Assembly (NCBI RefSeq): GCF_000014145.1 | Contig: NC_008255.1 | Span: 2,868,001-2,932,000 of the forward strand | Length of the DNA: 64,000 nt | From: Cytophaga hutchinsonii ATCC 33406 | GTDB lineage: Bacteria; Bacteroidota; Bacteroidia; Cytophagales; Cytophagaceae | Reading direction: 5' to 3' | Shown here: positions 18,417 to 39,628 of the stretch, in pieces | Position numbering within the stretch: the first letter of the stretch is position 1 | Layout of the letters: each line of letters starts with the position of its first letter | Translations under genes and position numbers: made by a program | The notes under the pieces: generated by a model | The model's input: the letters and a program-made list of their open reading frames with translations, nothing else | The model's database searches: none | Told to the model about the DNA's origin: nothing

Positions 18417-18454
18417 AAAAAGGTCGTCCCGCTATTTGCAGGACGACCTTTTTT
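18417..18454. terminator. Strong bidirectional terminator after aguB
   Basis: AAAAAGGTCGTCC pairs perfectly with GGACGACCTTTTT around an 11-nt loop, with A/T tracts on both sides. It serves aguB (+) and possibly the minus-strand RND operon. Confidence 0.9.
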
Positions 18455-18589: not shown

Positions 18590-21500
18590 TTACGACAGTT
18601 TCTCCACCTTAACGCCAAACCAGCCTTTAATTTTTCTGCTGGCTTTGTAGTTGATATAGTACATGATCGGTACTAAGATCAATGTTAAGAACGTAGCAAA
18701 AGCTAACCCGTGAATCATTGTCCATGCCAGAGGGCCCCAGAATGCAACGCTGTCGCCACCAAAGAAAATATGCGGATTACCTTCTGCGAATAACCGTACG
18801 AAGTCGATATTCAGACCTACAGCTAATGGAATCAAACCAAGAATGGTTGCCGTAGCCGTAAGCAATACCGGCGTCATACGCACTTTACCTGCGTGAACGA
18901 TCGCGTATTTCAGGTCGTGGCCTTCTTCCATGATAATATCGGTGAACTCAACCAGGATAATACCGTTACGAACTACAATACCTGCGAGTGCAATGATACC
19001 AACACCAGTCATTACAACCGAAATAGACATTCCGAAAATAGCTACCCCCAGCAATACCCCAATAACACTGAATCCGATTTCAGAAATAATCAGCAACGGT
19101 TTACTGATCGAGTTGAATTGTGTTACAAGAATGAATAAGATCATGATGAATGAAGTCAGCATAGCCATTCCAAGGAATGCCCCTGTTTCAGCCTGTTCTT
19201 CCTGTGCACCTGTTAACTGAATCAATACCTCTGTCGGCTTCTTGAAGCCAGGGATCAGTTTTTTGATCTCTGCATTGATTTCATTTGAATTGGCACCGGA
19301 TAATACGTTAGATGATAACGTTACGATACGACGCTGATTTTTACGTTTGATACCGCCATATGAATTGTCAAAACGCGCTTTCGCAATAGATGATAAAGGA
19401 ATCTGGCGGATCGCGCCACCCATGTTCATATCACGGAACGTAATTTTTGAATTCATCAGATCATCGATGTTTGTCCGCTGACCGAATGTGTATCTCAATT
19501 CAATATCATATTCATCATCCTTATCACGGAATTTAGAAACATCTTTTCCAAACACTGCATAGCGTAATTCCATACCGATCTGGGCTACAGAAACACCTTC
19601 TGCATTAGCTTTCTCTTTATCAATGTCAATTACAATTTCCGGTTTGTTTTTAACAACATCCGATTTCAGATCTTCAATTCCCTGGATACCTGAATTATCA
19701 ATCGTTCTTTTTAACTTTTCAGAAACTTCAATCAATTCATCGTAATCATCACCAATAATTTCAATGTTGATCTCCTTACCCGTTGGCGGACCGCCTTGTT
19801 CCTGATCAACGATGATCTGTGTTCCGGGAATACCTTTCACAGCCTCACGGATCTTGCCCAAATAAGGTACTGTTGATTCACCTTTACGGTGTGCAAACTC
19901 AACAAAAGCAACCGTTACTTTTGCTTTGTGCGGAGCCGTACTTAAATCCATCTCATTTGCATCACCCGCGCCGATCGCAACGTTCGTAATGACTGAAGAT
20001 ACAATAGGGTTCTCGTGGCCAATGACTTTAAAAATGCGGTTTTCAACTACCTGAGAGATCGAATCTGTATAAGACTGATCCGTACCAATCGGTAAATTGA
20101 TGTATGCGTAAATAAAATTCGGATCACTTGACGGGAAGAAAACCACTTTAGGTTTAACAATACCTGTTAAGATAATTGAAAAGATAAACATGAAAACAAT
20201 ACCACCTAACAATAGGAAAGGTCTTGCACCAACCAGACACCACTCAAGCACTTTTTCATATTTATTTTGTACACCCGGCCAGATATCGTCCTGGAAATGC
20301 TGGATCACATCTATGAGTACAAATTTATTTAATGAATACAGAAGCGCAAGAACAACCACAAAATTACCAAAACCGAATGAACCTGCTGCATAACCTAATA
20401 AAGCGATAACAGCAAATACAATCATCGTAATGATATAACCACGTGTAATTTTTTTATGGCTTTCATCATGCGCGTGCGGCTTCATGAAATCAACCGCAAA
20501 TACCGGGTTGATAATATATGCAACCAATAACGATGCAAGCAAGGTTACAATCAATGTAACAGGCAGGAAGTACATGAACTTACCAATGATCCCTTTCCAG
20601 AATAACAACGGAACGAATGGAGCCAATGTAGTCATCGTACCGGAGAATACCGGCATGAATACCTCGCCTGCCGCTTGTTTCGCAGCCTGCTTGATCGGAA
20701 CTTTTCCGTTTTCATAGATACGGTGCGTATTCTCTATAACCACAATCGCATCATCCACCACAATACCGAGTGCGAGCAGGAAGGCAAAGAGTACGATCAT
20801 ATTCAGCGTGATGCCCATCGTAGGCAGAACAATGAATGCGATCGCCATGGATAATGGTACAGACAAACCAACAAAGATGGCGTTGGTTGTACCCATGAAG
20901 AACATTAAGATGATAACTACAAGGATAAACCCAATGATGATCGTATTGATCAGATCATGCAGGGTTGTACGTGTTGCATCCGACTGGTCACCGGTGATCG
21001 TTATTTTTAAACCATCCGGTAATTTTGTCTTTTGCTGGTTTGCAATCAATTCCTGAATTTTATCAGAAGCATCGATCAGGTTCATCCCGCCGCGTTTAAT
21101 TACGTTCAGGGTAATTACGTTCTTACCATTCAAACGGGCAAAGCTTTCTGCTTCTTTGTACGTGTCTTTTACACCACCATTCTCAAGAATGTCTTTCAGA
21201 TATGTTTTAGCGCCTGACTGTGATAAGATCAAGAGGTTATTGATCTGATCCATCTCATCAAATTCACCTGTAACAGTAATGTTTCGTTTGATACCATCCA
21301 TTTTAATGGTACCGCCGGAGATCGTTAAGTTCTGGCTTTGTACAGCGCGCTCAATATCCGAAAATGTAATATTCGCCGCTTCCATTTTGTATTTATCCAC
21401 GTTGATCTGAATCTCACGCTCCGGTGCTCCGATGATGTCTACACGACGGATCTCTCTCATCGATTCGATCTGATCCTGCATATCATCCGCATACTTTTTA

Positions 21501-21967
21501 AGTTTGCTTAATTCATAATCACCCGAAAGGTTGATACCCATGATCGGAACCTGAGAAACGTCTACTTCAATTACCTGCGGATCATCCGGTAAGTCTGTCG
21601 GTAAATCATTCTTCGCCTGATCTACCGCATCTTTAACTTTCTGTTTCGCAATATTTACATCCACATCTGTATTGAATTCTACCAATACACTTGAATAATC
21701 CTGGATGGAATTACTGGTGATTTTTTTAACACCGGAAATACCCTTTACCTGTTTTTCAATGTGCTTGGTAACCAACTTCTCCATATCACTTGGCGAAGTA
21801 CCGGGATATATGGTAGCAACATACATCTGAGGAAATACGATCTCAGGGAATTGCTCTTTGGGCATATTGAAATAAGACATCAAACCAAAAATCGAAAGGA
21901 TGATGGTGAGTACATAAATACTTGTCTTATTATCAATGGACCAGCTACTGACTTTAAACTCTTTCAT
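18590..21967 (-). CDS. RND efflux transporter, inner-membrane pump (AcrB-like)
   Basis: 1125 residues from the chosen ATG (MKEFKVSSWSIDNKTS); an in-frame ATG at 21994 would add nine residues that do not look like family sequence. It has the HAE-type layout of TM1, a large periplasmic loop, TM2-6, a second loop and TM7-12. TM4 has LGIVVDDAIVVIENTHRIYE with the proton-relay Asp pair, and TM10-11 has GIIALAGIVVRNGIILVEF. It exports drugs or other amphiphiles by proton antiport together with the adaptor and TolC proteins encoded just upstream. A 63-bp gap separates it from the adaptor gene. Confidence 0.95.
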   Translation of the reverse strand: MKEFKVSSWSIDNKTSIYVLTIILSIFGLMSYFNMPKEQFPEIVFPQMYVATIYPGTSPSDMEKLVTKHIEKQVKGISGVKKITSNSIQDYSSVLVEFNTDVDVNIAKQKVKDAVDQAKNDLPTDLPDDPQVIEVDVSQVPIMGINLSGDYELSKLKKYADDMQDQIESMREIRRVDIIGAPEREIQINVDKYKMEAANITFSDIERAVQSQNLTISGGTIKMDGIKRNITVTGEFDEMDQINNLLILSQSGAKTYLKDILENGGVKDTYKEAESFARLNGKNVITLNVIKRGGMNLIDASDKIQELIANQQKTKLPDGLKITITGDQSDATRTTLHDLINTIIIGFILVVIILMFFMGTTNAIFVGLSVPLSMAIAFIVLPTMGITLNMIVLFAFLLALGIVVDDAIVVIENTHRIYENGKVPIKQAAKQAAGEVFMPVFSGTMTTLAPFVPLLFWKGIIGKFMYFLPVTLIVTLLASLLVAYIINPVFAVDFMKPHAHDESHKKITRGYIITMIVFAVIALLGYAAGSFGFGNFVVVLALLYSLNKFVLIDVIQHFQDDIWPGVQNKYEKVLEWCLVGARPFLLLGGIVFMFIFSIILTGIVKPKVVFFPSSDPNFIYAYINLPIGTDQSYTDSISQVVENRIFKVIGHENPIVSSVITNVAIGAGDANEMDLSTAPHKAKVTVAFVEFAHRKGESTVPYLGKIREAVKGIPGTQIIVDQEQGGPPTGKEINIEIIGDDYDELIEVSEKLKRTIDNSGIQGIEDLKSDVVKNKPEIVIDIDKEKANAEGVSVAQIGMELRYAVFGKDVSKFRDKDDEYDIELRYTFGQRTNIDDLMNSKITFRDMNMGGAIRQIPLSSIAKARFDNSYGGIKRKNQRRIVTLSSNVLSGANSNEINAEIKKLIPGFKKPTEVLIQLTGAQEEQAETGAFLGMAMLTSFIMILFILVTQFNSISKPLLIISEIGFSVIGVLLGVAIFGMSISVVMTGVGIIALAGIVVRNGIILVEFTDIIMEEGHDLKYAIVHAGKVRMTPVLLTATATILGLIPLAVGLNIDFVRLFAEGNPHIFFGGDSVAFWGPLAWTMIHGLAFATFLTLILVPIMYYINYKASRKIKGWFGVKVEKLS

Positions 21968-22030
21968 ATGTGTAAGATTATTATTTGTGTGCAAAATGAC
22001 TGCACATATATATCTATTGAGTTATACTGA

Positions 22031-23146
22031 TTATTCAAATTTAATTGGCTGGCCTTCTACTAAGTCCTGATACCCGATCGTGATCAATTTTTCACCTTCT
22101 TTCAAACCGTCTAATACCTCTACAGAGTTATCATAATACTGTCCAAGTGTTATGAAACGCTTTGCAGAAATATTTCCGTCAACAACATATACATAATTTT
22201 TGTCGTTGTTGCGCTGTACAAGATTTACAGGAATTACAATCACAGCTGGATTTGAATAATCTTTGATCTTGATATAGGAAATCATATTTGCTTTCAGCAG
22301 ATTTTTATCCTGTTTCAGATCAAGATCAACCTGGAACGTTCTGTTTGTCGGATCAATCACATCACCAACTACTTTCACACGTGTTTTGATTTCCTTATTG
22401 ATGTCCGGGAACGTAACAATCGCTTCCTGATTTACTTTCACTTTACTTACATAAGATTCAGAAACAGCAGCAACTAATTTAAGATCACCTGTATTTACCA
22501 ATCTGAATGCAGGCATGCCGGGCGCTAACATTTGTCCTTCTTTCGTATACACCTCGTCAATTACACCTGAGAACGGTGCGCGAATGGATGTTTTTGAATA
22601 TTGTTCCTGTAACGTAGCTTTTCTGCTTTCTGCTGCTTCTTTCTGATTCTTCGCATTTAAATACTGAACTTCCGTTCCGATCTGCTGATCCCACAACCGT
22701 TTTTGTTTATCATATAACTGATTCAGGAGTTCAAGTTGTTTGTCTACTTCCTGAATACCTTTCATTAATTGATCGCCATCTGTTTTAGCAAGCAATGCAC
22801 CCTTTTGTACCTGCTGTCCTTTTACAACATAAACCTGGTCTACAGAACCACCTACAGAAGAACTGATCTCAACATTTTTATCTGAATCAATTTTACCCTG
22901 AATCTGAAGATAATGTGTGAATGGTTTTTTCTTCACCTGTTCAAAACCTACAACAATATATTTTGTTGCCGCTCCTGCCGATGTATCCGTTTTTTTAATT
23001 TCTTCTTCTAGTGTTTTTATCTTTTCAGCTAACGTAGTCTGTTCTGATTTCAATTTTTCCAACTCAGCTTTTTTATCCGGTGCACCGCATGAAATGGCTA
23101 CTGCCAGCAAGCTTAAACTTAAATATGTATATGTTCTGTTTTTCAT
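22031..23146 (-). CDS. RND periplasmic adaptor lipoprotein (MFP)
   Basis: 371 residues. The N-terminus MKNRTYTYLSLSLLAVAISC is a lipoprotein signal with the lipid Cys at position 20, followed by a coiled coil (KAELEKLKSEQTTLAEKIKT, then EEEIKK). A lipoyl-like half-motif (VGGSVDQVYVVKGQQVQKGA), an alpha-hairpin (QLELLNQLYDKQKRL), the second lipoyl half (IRAPFSGVIDEVYTKEGQML) and beta-barrel/membrane-proximal domains complete the MFP layout. It links the RND pump to TolC. It lies in order TetR-TolC-MFP-RND. Confidence 0.94.
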   Translation of the reverse strand: MKNRTYTYLSLSLLAVAISCGAPDKKAELEKLKSEQTTLAEKIKTLEEEIKKTDTSAGAATKYIVVGFEQVKKKPFTHYLQIQGKIDSDKNVEISSSVGGSVDQVYVVKGQQVQKGALLAKTDGDQLMKGIQEVDKQLELLNQLYDKQKRLWDQQIGTEVQYLNAKNQKEAAESRKATLQEQYSKTSIRAPFSGVIDEVYTKEGQMLAPGMPAFRLVNTGDLKLVAAVSESYVSKVKVNQEAIVTFPDINKEIKTRVKVVGDVIDPTNRTFQVDLDLKQDKNLLKANMISYIKIKDYSNPAVIVIPVNLVQRNNDKNYVYVVDGNISAKRFITLGQYYDNSVEVLDGLKEGEKLITIGYQDLVEGQPIKFE

Positions 23147-23184: not shown

Positions 23185-24576
23185 TTATTCTGTAAATAAT
23201 GATCCTGTTGCTTTTTGATAATCAATTAATGAAACGAGTGCATTGTATACCGCATCGTAATAATTTGTCTGTGCGTTTTTAAATGAATTCTCTGCATCAA
23301 CTACTTCCAGGTTTGATCCAACGCCTTCATCGTATTTGATTTTTGTTTGTTTAATCACCTGCTCAGCTAATTCTAAATTGCGTTTCTGCGATTTGATATT
23401 TTCCAGGTTGTTATCCAGTATAATCTTTGTCTGCTGTACCTGAAGATCAATCGCGTCTTCCATAAGTTCCATGTTATTTTCAACCTTCTTTACTTTAAGT
23501 TTAGCCCCCTGCTGCTGGTAATAGTGATTACCACCTGTAAAGATCGGCACGGTAAGTTTTGCGCCTACAAACCCATATCCATAATATTTGGTTGAATATA
23601 ATTTCATATAGTCGTTATTCATGTTTATAATTCCGGCTGTACCAAAAGCAACCAGTTTCGGATAGCTAAGCGCCCGTGTATTTTTATAATTCAATTCTTC
23701 CAGCCTTTTCTGCGTTTTCAATAAAGAATATTCGATACGCGTATTGTAATCAAAGGCACCGGTAGAAGGATTGCTTACTGTATTTAAACGTGCCACTAAT
23801 TCATCCAGTGTACCGCTCAATTTCAATTCCTGATTTACCGGATAGCTCATCTGGTATTTCAACAATGCATAGGTAAGAATCAATTGGTTCTGAACATTCA
23901 GACGATCTGTTTTTAAATTGTTTGAAGTTACTTCCAGACGGTTAACATCAAGACCTTCGGCAAAACCGCTTTTATTTACTTCTTTCAATTGTTTTAACGA
24001 AGTATCAATACGCGCAATATTAGCATCCAGCAATTTCATACGTTGTTCATTAATTAAAACCAGGTAAAATCCTTTCGTTATTTTATCTGTCGTCTCAATT
24101 TTTGTTTGTGTCATGGATTTTGTTGCAAGCTCGTTATATGTTTTTGAAGCTTTTAATCCAACGAGATAAGAACCGTCAAATATAATCTGAGAAGCATTCA
24201 GTGTTGCTGTATTTGACGCTTTCAACTGAAACAGATTCGGGATAACACGCGTACCATTCGGATCAACCCCTGGCGGTAAAGGCGCGCCTCCATTGATAAA
24301 TTGATTAGCCGTTTCATTTGTCATGAACATTGGCTGCAACGCAACATTATACATGCTGCTCCCTTCAAAATTAATCTGAGGCAAACCATAGGCCCGTGTT
24401 TCATTCACTTTGTTCTTTGAAATCTGCTGGTCCAGTGAGGCATTTTTAACATCTGCCTGATTTGTAAAGGCATAATTGATGCATTCATCCAGTGTAAAAA
24501 CGGAGTCCTGCTGTGCCTGCGCACCATGATAAAAAATCATGGCGACGAGTAAAGATAAAATTGATAGCTTCTTCAT
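23185..24576 (-). CDS. TolC-family outer-membrane efflux protein
   Basis: 463 residues. The signal peptide MKKLSILSLLVAMIFYHGAQA precedes FTLDECINYAFTNQADVKNA, the usual OEP start. Two OEP repeats follow, each with long amphipathic helices; IKYDEGVGSNLEVVDAENSF near the end is the repeat-2 hallmark. It forms the trimeric outer-membrane channel of the efflux system. The gap to the MFP gene is 38 bp and to tetR 36 bp. Confidence 0.94.
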   Translation of the reverse strand: MKKLSILSLLVAMIFYHGAQAQQDSVFTLDECINYAFTNQADVKNASLDQQISKNKVNETRAYGLPQINFEGSSMYNVALQPMFMTNETANQFINGGAPLPPGVDPNGTRVIPNLFQLKASNTATLNASQIIFDGSYLVGLKASKTYNELATKSMTQTKIETTDKITKGFYLVLINEQRMKLLDANIARIDTSLKQLKEVNKSGFAEGLDVNRLEVTSNNLKTDRLNVQNQLILTYALLKYQMSYPVNQELKLSGTLDELVARLNTVSNPSTGAFDYNTRIEYSLLKTQKRLEELNYKNTRALSYPKLVAFGTAGIINMNNDYMKLYSTKYYGYGFVGAKLTVPIFTGGNHYYQQQGAKLKVKKVENNMELMEDAIDLQVQQTKIILDNNLENIKSQKRNLELAEQVIKQTKIKYDEGVGSNLEVVDAENSFKNAQTNYYDAVYNALVSLIDYQKATGSLFTE

Positions 24577-24612: not shown

Positions 24613-25227
24613 TTATTCTTCTTCCTGTATCTGTTTGTATTTATTAATAAGCTTATGTCCTTTCAGTGTACAGATCCCGTATAGAAAATGCTCTAACAAT
24701 TGAATCTGAACATCTGAGAAATATTTGCCTTCTTTAAATATCCGCGGGTTAAACCCCCATTCTACCTGCTCCATCCGCAGGCGGGATAAAATATCAATAT
24801 TGATCTGTGTTCTGTAATAACCCATCGTTATTCCCCACTTCAAATTTTCTGACATCGAATTAATGATGCATTTTTCTTTAAAGCTCAGATAGTTTTCATA
24901 GGCTTTCGGATAATAGCGCTGAATCTCCATTAACAAAAACGGATTCATATTTGAAAACAATCCACGCATATATTCCGATAATTTCAATACCTCATCAATC
25001 GGATCCTTCGCTGTTGCATGGATCACATCTACCTGAGATTCCTGACTTTCCATGCTTAGTTTTACCGCTAATGTTACTAATTCATCTTTATCAGAAACAT
25101 GCTGATAAATCGTTTTTTTAGAAACACCCAGTTTTTTAGCTACTTCATCCATCGTGATAGATTTTACTCCATAAGCCAGGAATAAAGATTCCGCTCCTGA
25201 AATAATTCTATTTTTCATTTCATCCAT
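24613..25227 (-). CDS. TetR/AcrR-family regulator of the efflux operon
   Basis: 204 residues. The N-terminal TetR HTH reads AESLFLAYGVKSITMDEVAK then KLGVSKKTIYQHVSDKDELV. The C-terminal ligand domain is diverged, as usual. The first gene of the efflux operon; an alternative start (MKNRI) lies three codons in. The promoter in front overlaps a perfect inverted repeat (25252-25293), so I infer autorepression of the whole operon that is relieved by an efflux substrate. Confidence 0.93.
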   Translation of the reverse strand: MDEMKNRIISGAESLFLAYGVKSITMDEVAKKLGVSKKTIYQHVSDKDELVTLAVKLSMESQESQVDVIHATAKDPIDEVLKLSEYMRGLFSNMNPFLLMEIQRYYPKAYENYLSFKEKCIINSMSENLKWGITMGYYRTQINIDILSRLRMEQVEWGFNPRIFKEGKYFSDVQIQLLEHFLYGICTLKGHKLINKYKQIQEEE

Positions 25228-25249
25228 TGGCTTTTCACTTTTACCAATG

Positions 25250-25293
25250 CAAAACTATGGAAACTTTTTACATATCAATAGTTTCCATAGTTT
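25250..25293 (-). promoter_or_regulatory. Efflux operon promoter inside a TetR-type operator
   Basis: On the plus strand AAACTATGGAAAC (25252-25264) and GTTTCCATAGTTT (25281-25293) form a perfect 13-bp inverted repeat with a 16-nt spacer. Read on the minus strand, TAGTTTTG (25250-25257) fits the Bacteroidota -7 box TAnnTTTG. A TTG (25276-25278) lies 18 nt upstream as the -33 box. The two half-sites therefore cover both promoter elements, a layout that suits repression by the TetR protein encoded from 25227. Confidence 0.8.
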
Positions 25294-25422
25294 ATTTTAT
25301 AAAATATCCAAAATGAGGGTATTAGAGTGTTTTTAATATAAAAATATCTGTAAAAAATTAAACTATTCCATTTTTATGGAGTCAAATAAATAAAATAAAA
25401 CCCTTTACTGAATAAAGGCTTC

Positions 25423-27258
25423 CTACCGGGTAACTTGGATCCATCCTTTTTTTACTTCATCATTCAGATCAATGGAATAATAGTAGATACCATCACTTTC
25501 CTTGGGAAACCATTGAAAAAACCTATCCTGACTATAGTATACACGTGATCCCCAGCGGTTGTATATTTCTATGCCTTTGAAATATTTTGAACAGTTGCCA
25601 ACGGGAATGTCACGCACCTGGTAAAAATCATTTAACCCGTCTCCGTTTGGTGTTACCAAATTTGTAATCTCCATTCCAGCAAAGGAAACTTCATTTTCGA
25701 ATACAACAATGCGTTGCTGCACCGTATCTGCGTGTCCATAAATACAGCTGTTATCGTTTATTAAAAAATAAATATCATATATACCCGGGTACAGGTCATT
25801 GCAGTTGGGTATCCAGCTAAACGTTGAACGGATCGTAGAAGTACTGTCAAAAACATTTTGAAAATTCATGCTGCGTTGTGCATTCTGTATGGTAAGGGAT
25901 AATACATCTGCAGGATCTGCATCTGCACCAAACACATCAAACGTAAGCAGTGAATCAACGCGCACCACCTGCGGATTAAGCGATGGAGAAATGAAAACTT
26001 CAGGTACTGCATTTTGCGGCACAAGCACTTTTACTATAAAATCGAGCGTATCATATTGTGCCGGGCAGCGTATATCATTAATAATAATATGAAAGTTAAA
26101 ATCTGTTGTTGCTTTGAGTTGCTCCATCAAACAGGGATTGATGCACAGGTTCGAAACAATGGTATCATCAACCGGATTCAATGTTAATTGATTGATAAAA
26201 TTCCATTTTCCTGACGGAAAATCACTTGTCGTTCTTACATTGATAAATTCACTCCTGCCGAATTGTGATGCATCAACATCTGTTATGTAAATGGGGATAC
26301 AGCTTTCACCTTTGACCGGTACTTCAATAACAGCGCCTGTATGAAGTGGGGTGTTTCCAAAATCAATAACAGGTTTATTATTTGGAGCGCATGACTGCAC
26401 ATTAAACTGAAAATCTTTACGTACTTCACTCAGCAATATGTTATTTCTGTATTCGAATACTCTGATGCCAAAAAGAAATGTACCAGACTGCGAAGGATTA
26501 AATATCATTTGCCCGGTATGTTTGTCAATACGCATAGGAACCGTTCCCGGAACGGGGCTGTTGCCGCTGTATCCGCTAAGCCATTGTACGTTGCGGCCGT
26601 TTGATTCCTGTGGTGAAACTAAACTATATACCAGACTATCTCCTTCTGCATCTGCTGCGCTCATATCAAATGTATTGAGTGCATCCAGACAAAAATATTC
26701 GTTATTTAAGCGTTTGAAAAATGGCGTTGTGTTTTTTATTTTCCCTTCGTATTTTGTTGTAAATAAAAATATCTCCTGTTCTTGACTATAACTATTGCTA
26801 CTGCTACTATACAATTTGGCAATATTTGTAATATCCGAACTTCTGCAGCACTGCACCCACCTTACTTTACATGCATCATAGGAATTAAATTCATTCAGGG
26901 TTACAACACTCTGATACACCTGTAAACTTGTTTTAACAATAGTTGAATTGACACAATAATTATTGTTATTGACCAGAAGTGTATTCGATATCAACGCTAG
27001 ATATTCTGTGCGGATAACTGTAGTATTATTACCATTTGAAAATTCAAGCGTAACTGTTTCAATAGCGTCCGGACCATAAATTTCCTGATAATAACCTCTT
27101 TCATTTACATATTTATTTAATATGATCTGGTAACGATTATCTGTTCCTGTCCATCGGATAAAAATATCCCCTCCAACGATGTGTGTAGCGTAGCCATTGA
27201 ACTGAAAAAACAATGCCGTTACCAGGAAGAATAGTAACCTCAACAACAATTTATCCAT
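25423..27258 (-). CDS. Secreted gliding-motility-type protein with T9SS type B (CHU_C) domain
   Basis: 611 residues from MDKLLLRLLFF; an upstream ATG at 27270 adds four residues. After the signal peptide comes GYATHIVGGDIFIRWTGTDN, the common start of this Bacteroidota family. Several Ig-like/cadherin-like segments follow (for example FNMSAADAEGDSLVYSLVSP). The C-terminus has VTPNGDGLNDFYQ, IEIYNRWGSRVYY and DGIYYYSIDLNDEVKKGWIQ, the CHU_C/T9SS type B sorting domain. It is exported by type 9 secretion and held at or released from the cell surface. Its role in adhesion is only inferred. Confidence 0.9.
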   Translation of the reverse strand: MDKLLLRLLFFLVTALFFQFNGYATHIVGGDIFIRWTGTDNRYQIILNKYVNERGYYQEIYGPDAIETVTLEFSNGNNTTVIRTEYLALISNTLLVNNNNYCVNSTIVKTSLQVYQSVVTLNEFNSYDACKVRWVQCCRSSDITNIAKLYSSSSNSYSQEQEIFLFTTKYEGKIKNTTPFFKRLNNEYFCLDALNTFDMSAADAEGDSLVYSLVSPQESNGRNVQWLSGYSGNSPVPGTVPMRIDKHTGQMIFNPSQSGTFLFGIRVFEYRNNILLSEVRKDFQFNVQSCAPNNKPVIDFGNTPLHTGAVIEVPVKGESCIPIYITDVDASQFGRSEFINVRTTSDFPSGKWNFINQLTLNPVDDTIVSNLCINPCLMEQLKATTDFNFHIIINDIRCPAQYDTLDFIVKVLVPQNAVPEVFISPSLNPQVVRVDSLLTFDVFGADADPADVLSLTIQNAQRSMNFQNVFDSTSTIRSTFSWIPNCNDLYPGIYDIYFLINDNSCIYGHADTVQQRIVVFENEVSFAGMEITNLVTPNGDGLNDFYQVRDIPVGNCSKYFKGIEIYNRWGSRVYYSQDRFFQWFPKESDGIYYYSIDLNDEVKKGWIQVTR

Positions 27259-27444
27259 ACTTTCCCTCAAAAGATACCTGAATATACGCTTTACGCTGAT
27301 TTTTCCAGAAAGTTCCCGCTATTTCTGCTAACAACCCGTTCCTATCACCCGCTTTATCGTAATAAAAACATGTAAATAACTCGTTATGCCACGCTTCAAA
27401 TCCTAAAAAGTATCTACCGGATAAATTAGAACAAATATATTCCG

Positions 27445-39572: not shown

Positions 39573-39628
39573 AACATAAAAAGAAAGAGGTTCGTTATCT
39601 GTATAACGAACCTCTTTCTTTTTATGTT
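39573..39628. terminator. Very strong bidirectional terminator
   Basis: A perfect 26-bp inverted repeat (39573-39598 and 39603-39628) with a 4-nt loop (ctgt). The core is GAAAGAGGTTCGTTAT/ATAACGAACCTCTTTC. It lies between the E2 gene (+) and the giant gene (-). Confidence 0.95.

Follow-up and report, generated by a model that had tools for sequence, protein, structure and literature searches.

A conserved inverted repeat at the promoter of a TetR–RND efflux operon in Cytophaga hutchinsonii is a predicted TetR operator

A long, widely spaced inverted repeat lies 24 bp upstream of a tetR gene in a 64,000-nucleotide stretch of the genome of Cytophaga hutchinsonii, a soil bacterium that feeds on cellulose (the stretch is hereafter referred to as the window), and the tetR gene heads an operon for an RND efflux pump. 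Which protein, if any, recognizes this repeat, which bases belong to the recognition site and which to the promoter, and how would a TetR-family regulator engage half-sites that stand so far apart? A sequence-only reading of the locus had proposed a TetR-type operator. Here we describe the repeat and its operon, compare the site among relatives within and beyond the order, and weigh the explanations that could account for it.

The inverted repeat and its efflux operon

The repeat, AAACTATGGAAAC-N16-GTTTCCATAGTTT, occupies positions 25252–25293 of the window, which read AAACTATGGAAACTTTTTACATATCAATAGTTTCCATAGTTT, with its arms at 25252–25264 and 25281–25293. The perfect 13-bp inverted repeat with 16-nt spacing claimed from the sequence is present, and perfect pairing even reaches 1 bp further, so that the strict perfect arms measure 14 bp around a gap of 14 nt; with one mismatch allowed, the arms extend to 17 nt and the gap shrinks to 8 nt. 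Its 22 specified bases occur once in the 4.43-Mb genome (4,433,218 bp) at up to three mismatches (control, 0), and a genome-wide regulon in C. hutchinsonii was rejected because this 22-base pattern is single-copy. The looser pattern GGAAACN{4,30}GTTTCC is found 17 times genome-wide against 16 for its reversed control, that is, without enrichment. Two more exact GGAAACN16GTTTCC sites lie at 3188625 and 460713 (L188). Neither was accepted as a regulon member, the former falling within a long open frame that resembles a histidine kinase, nor was a half-site at 3398404 (L189), which has no partner half-site.

Ten simulated 64-kb windows contained two perfect inverted repeats whose arms measured 13 or more and whose gaps did not exceed 30 (approximately 0.2 per window), and the real window holds eight with arms of at least 12, several of which look terminator-like by eye. 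Since simulated windows also yield such repeats, the repeat alone is weak evidence, and comparison decides. Elsewhere in the window, positions 39573–39628 form a perfect hairpin with 26-bp arms and a 4-nt gap, possibly a bidirectional terminator.

The operon is encoded on the minus strand and begins with tetR (24613–25227, start at 25227), whose 204-residue product matches the N-terminal helix-turn-helix domain TetR_N (PF00440) with 41.4 bits (cut-off 24). It is followed by co-directional genes for a TolC-like outer membrane efflux protein (23185–24576; 463 residues; OEP, 119.5 bits), a periplasmic adaptor or membrane fusion protein (22031–23146; 371 residues; TIGR01730, 184.7 bits, cut-off 94.9) and an RND permease (18590–21994; 1,134 residues, start listed as TTG; ACR_tran, 617 bits), separated by intergenic gaps of 36, 38 and 36 bp, respectively. 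These domain matches, the gene order and the short gaps bear out the proposal that these genes form an efflux operon with tetR at its head. Approximately 136 bp past the RND gene, a 13-bp perfect hairpin with A/T-run flanks (18417–18453) is, judged from its sequence, the probable operon terminator. The upstream neighbour of tetR (25423–27270, minus strand) has a weak match to a T9SS type B sorting domain (26.3 bits; cut-off 35).

The predicted model of the TetR protein (pLDDT 89.2) comprises ten helices in an ordinary all-helical TetR fold with a C-terminal ligand and dimer domain, and its best structural matches are TetR-family proteins, with Z-scores of up to 18.1. Against the AcrR equivalog NF007949 the protein scores 26.2 bits (cut-off 271) and against the tetracycline repressor equivalog NF010319 20.5 bits (cut-off 265), which places it in neither of these two groups. 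Another C. hutchinsonii TetR protein matches PDB 3f0c with full identity across 210 residues. The locus thus combines the gene arrangement of an autoregulated TetR–RND efflux operon with, as read from the DNA, a palindromic site over the promoter of the regulator.

Conservation of the site and its spacing

TetR relatives (E ≤ 1e-20) were found in 195 of 241 genomes of the order and in 53 of 296 genomes sampled from the phylum. We compared the upstream regions of 101 loci with TetR relatives of the same order, 95 of them with distinct upstream regions, and took for each the best GGAAAC…GTTTCC pair with at most two mismatches, allowing gaps of 4–40 and resolving ties in favour of 16. The gap was 16 nt in 84 of the 95 unique loci (66 exact), 17 nt in three and another length in five, and three had no pair; of these last, L055 and L056 carry the site approximately 500 bp upstream, and L096 is cut by the contig end. 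Among 29 loci from the phylum search, which are the best-scoring part of the phylum matches, every one had the 16-nt gap with at most one mismatch, including all 18 of them that come from outside the order. In C. hutchinsonii this conserved operator core, GGAAAC-N16-GTTTCC (equivalent to GGAAACTTT-N10-AAAGTTTCC), spans 28 bp at 25259–25286. The three loci with a 17-nt gap (L072, L083 and L109) also have changed inner bases, and offer a natural test of spacing tolerance.

A chance repeat around a promoter, which the simulated frequency might have accommodated, is refuted by this conservation across the order and beyond, and we regard it as having practically no probability. The conservation of the repeat before tetR orthologs likewise supports the reading as a TetR-type operator, as a prediction from sequence. 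Of 232 genomes of the order, 157 contain exact GGAAACN16GTTTCC, usually as a single copy, and some TetR-bearing genomes lack the exact site. The reversed control pattern also occurs about once in many of these genomes, which means that the 12 bases by themselves carry information only when their position is considered as well; once the flanking T/A was included, the control fell to zero in all 12 genomes tested. The order TetR–TolC–adaptor–RND is kept in nine of the 11 loci from named genomes, and the other two (L017 and L020) show matching genes in the same order up to the end of the available sequence. The 18-base core was also found in 11 viral contigs, which we took as chance, with none of the 11 loci matching the four operon proteins.

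Copies away from a tetR gene were sought in genomes chosen for having several sites or for their nearness to such genomes, a sample that shows possibility and not frequency. One genome (G082) carries near-identical sites, one before tetR–tolC and one before an adaptor–RND pair. In three others (G101, G176 and G183, with four, four and three sites, respectively; two loci examined in each, L211–L213 and L219–L221), copies immediately precede adaptor or RND genes, and in G133 two of the four sites were examined, of which one precedes an adaptor gene and the other is close to an RND gene. In some relatives, split or additional efflux operons thus have a copy to themselves, and the site can, as read from these sequences, accompany efflux genes that have no neighbouring tetR. 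The examined copies in G101, G176 and G183 lack an adjacent tetR, and a multi-operon efflux regulon is possible there. Two genomes of one family (G004 and G006) hold a second 28-bp core (L190:1706–1733 and L191:2260–2287) upstream of a gene that, judged by eye, resembles those for TonB-dependent receptors and has an N-terminal part like a carboxypeptidase.

Such copies bear on whether some regulator other than the neighbouring TetR binds the repeat. That the site precedes a different TetR gene in one genome (G164; L215) and a TonB-type receptor gene in G004 and G006 would suit this explanation. The site nevertheless accompanies TetR orthologs down to approximately 32% identity, and the pattern occurs about once in most genomes examined, which makes another regulator a very unlikely reader of the repeat.

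Operator core, promoter and outer elements

The minus-strand promoter reads TTG-N18-TAGTTTTG, in which the −7 box TAGTTTTG (TAnnTTTG) lies at 25250–25257 and the −33 TTG, 18 nt away, at 25276–25278. In Flavobacterium psychrophilum, the −7 consensus TAnnTTTG is described as spanning −12 to −5 (PMC9723704), and this position would put the transcription start at about 25245, which is 18 nt upstream of the ATG. In 64 of 113 unique sites the −7 box keeps its offset, and 80 relatives gave 49 counts of a TTG at 18–20 nt from TAnnTTTG. Of the two arms, the one nearer the promoter overlaps the −7 box, and the −33 TTG falls in the spacer, next to the far arm. At the level of sequence, the repeat therefore does overlap a Bacteroidota promoter as had been proposed; the claimed coverage of the −7 and −33 boxes applies to the 42-bp site as a whole, but not to the two arms, given that the −33 TTG lies between them.

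The position of the promoter also bears on a reading at the RNA level. The inverted repeat is strong, as expected of an RNA hairpin or terminator, but it lies upstream of the inferred start, no terminator-like site was found in 24900–25600, no Rfam family matches at the site, and base identities are conserved rather than pairing alone. We rejected this reading on these grounds, and its probability is minute.

Alignment of 87 sites (effective number 67) revealed information peaks at GGAAACTTT, AAAGTTTCC, the left outer AAAC and the right TAGTTTTG, whereas the innermost bases are weakly conserved. Among the 113 unique sites, the −7 box falls in the right arm in 64 and further out in 16, and in 33 no TAnnTTTG was found. 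In all 16 sites with a more distant box, both half-sites match exactly, and two of these 16 retain the outer right GTTT. Because the core persists when the −7 box moves and the outer right GTTT mostly does not, the operator core is separable from the promoter, and the outermost right arm is mainly −7 box rather than operator.

The outer promoter-distal element (25290–25293; AAAC in the operon direction) behaves differently. AAAC is present in 54 of the 113 unique sites, comprising 34 of the 64 with the −7 box in the right arm, seven of the 16 with the box further out and 13 of the 33 with none found. Since it is present whether or not the −7 box sits in the right arm, it is conserved for a reason other than that box. 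A shift scan found it most like GGAAAC at 9 bp, as a 9-bp-spaced repeat of the half-site, and an exact tandem GGAAAC occurs in four of the 113 sites. After the TetR proteins had been thinned to below 60% identity, the positions 14.5 bp either side of the centre showed complementary covariation (41 of 74 where 27.3 were expected; permutation p = 0.0005), p values in this test ignoring remaining relatedness; positions 15.5, 16.5 and the others tested gave no significance after thinning.

A tentative reading, which we consider possible but doubtful, is that the operator has four GGAAAC-like elements, arranged as two tandem pairs 9 bp apart and mirrored across the 16-nt gap, with the fourth element doubling as the −7 box. 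The site would then represent an old Bacteroidota lineage of TetR operators with its own geometry of two dimers or more, and repressor contact and sigma contact would share the same bases.

Dimer number, proposed repression and known systems

The centres of the inverted half-sites are 22 bp apart. DNA-bound TetR-family dimers are described with their recognition helices 31–39 Å apart, approximately one helical turn (PMC4150764, PMC10636190), so one ordinary dimer could not touch both half-sites. Operators of dimer-of-dimers regulators are given as 22–32 bp long, with 28 bp for QacR (PMC4150764), and the 28-bp core falls within this range. On these two grounds, we consider two dimers per site likelier than one. 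A single TetR dimer of unusual geometry might instead span both half-sites, which are separated by two helical turns and share one DNA face; the almost invariant 16-nt gap, as for a rigid unit, and the weak conservation of the innermost bases speak for it. Given the helix distances of the known DNA-bound dimers and the ordinary TetR fold of the predicted model, we consider such a dimer unlikely.

We therefore favour, with a probability of roughly 0.88, the reading that the repeat is the operator of the adjacent TetR, which would autorepress the TetR–RND operon by promoter occlusion, probably with two dimers per site. In the absence of inducer, TetR would occupy the 28-bp core, most likely as two cooperating dimers, and cover the −33 and −7 boxes. 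The occupied site would keep RNA polymerase off the promoter, and TetR would thereby repress its own gene together with the tolC, adaptor and RND genes on one transcript, until a pump substrate in its ligand pocket releases it. In this explanation, we infer the binding, the repression, the two dimers and the inducer.

The operator is very likely, on its sequence and conservation, a broadly conserved new case of an ordinary switch, namely a local TetR operator that overlaps the promoter of an RND efflux operon; the switch is of an ordinary kind, yet old and little described. Our literature search (open-licence papers on TetR and efflux in C. hutchinsonii, Bacteroides, Flavobacterium and Riemerella, on QacR and on the motif) found no description of this operator, which does not establish it as unpublished, and found little on efflux control in Bacteroidota. 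The site supplies a recognition motif and a probable regulator for an RND efflux operon that is widely conserved in this phylum, and the motif enables regulon prediction in any genome of the group. Its fixed 28-bp geometry also makes it a clean test case for the use of two dimers on one operator by TetR proteins.

Among known systems, AcrR of Escherichia coli is likewise a local TetR-family repressor of an RND pump (acrAB); it differs in that the C. hutchinsonii TetR falls far below the AcrR cut-off and in that its gene is the first of the pump operon. The arrangement of acrR relative to its pump genes is not that of a tetR-first operon. The BmeR system of Bacteroides is a possible relative. 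Neither DarR nor CprB is known to be a local regulator of an RND operon. Both are TetR-family regulators described as binding as dimers of dimers, on operators of 20–22 bp that are shorter than the 28-bp core (PMC10636190, PMC4150764).

QacR is closer in geometry, with an operator equal to the core in length (PMC4150764). Its 28 bp qualify the claim, made by comparison with TetO and AcrR sites, that the spacing here is wide: the 16-nt gap is indeed kept in 84 of 95 and 18 of 18 loci, but it is not wider than in every known site. The TetR model superimposes on QacR in its DNA complex (PDB 1jt0) with a Z-score of 15.7, at 3.4 Å over 182 residues and 17% identity; two dimers are proven for QacR and suggested by sequence for C. 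hutchinsonii. The closest likeness in gene order, as described in PMC5727081, is the RaeR–RaeB locus of Riemerella anatipestifer (B739_0870 to B739_0873). The locus shares the order TetR, outer membrane factor, adaptor and RND, and the account there gives no operator. Deleting raeB made R. anatipestifer more susceptible to aminoglycosides and detergents, and the pump exports both (PMC5727081).
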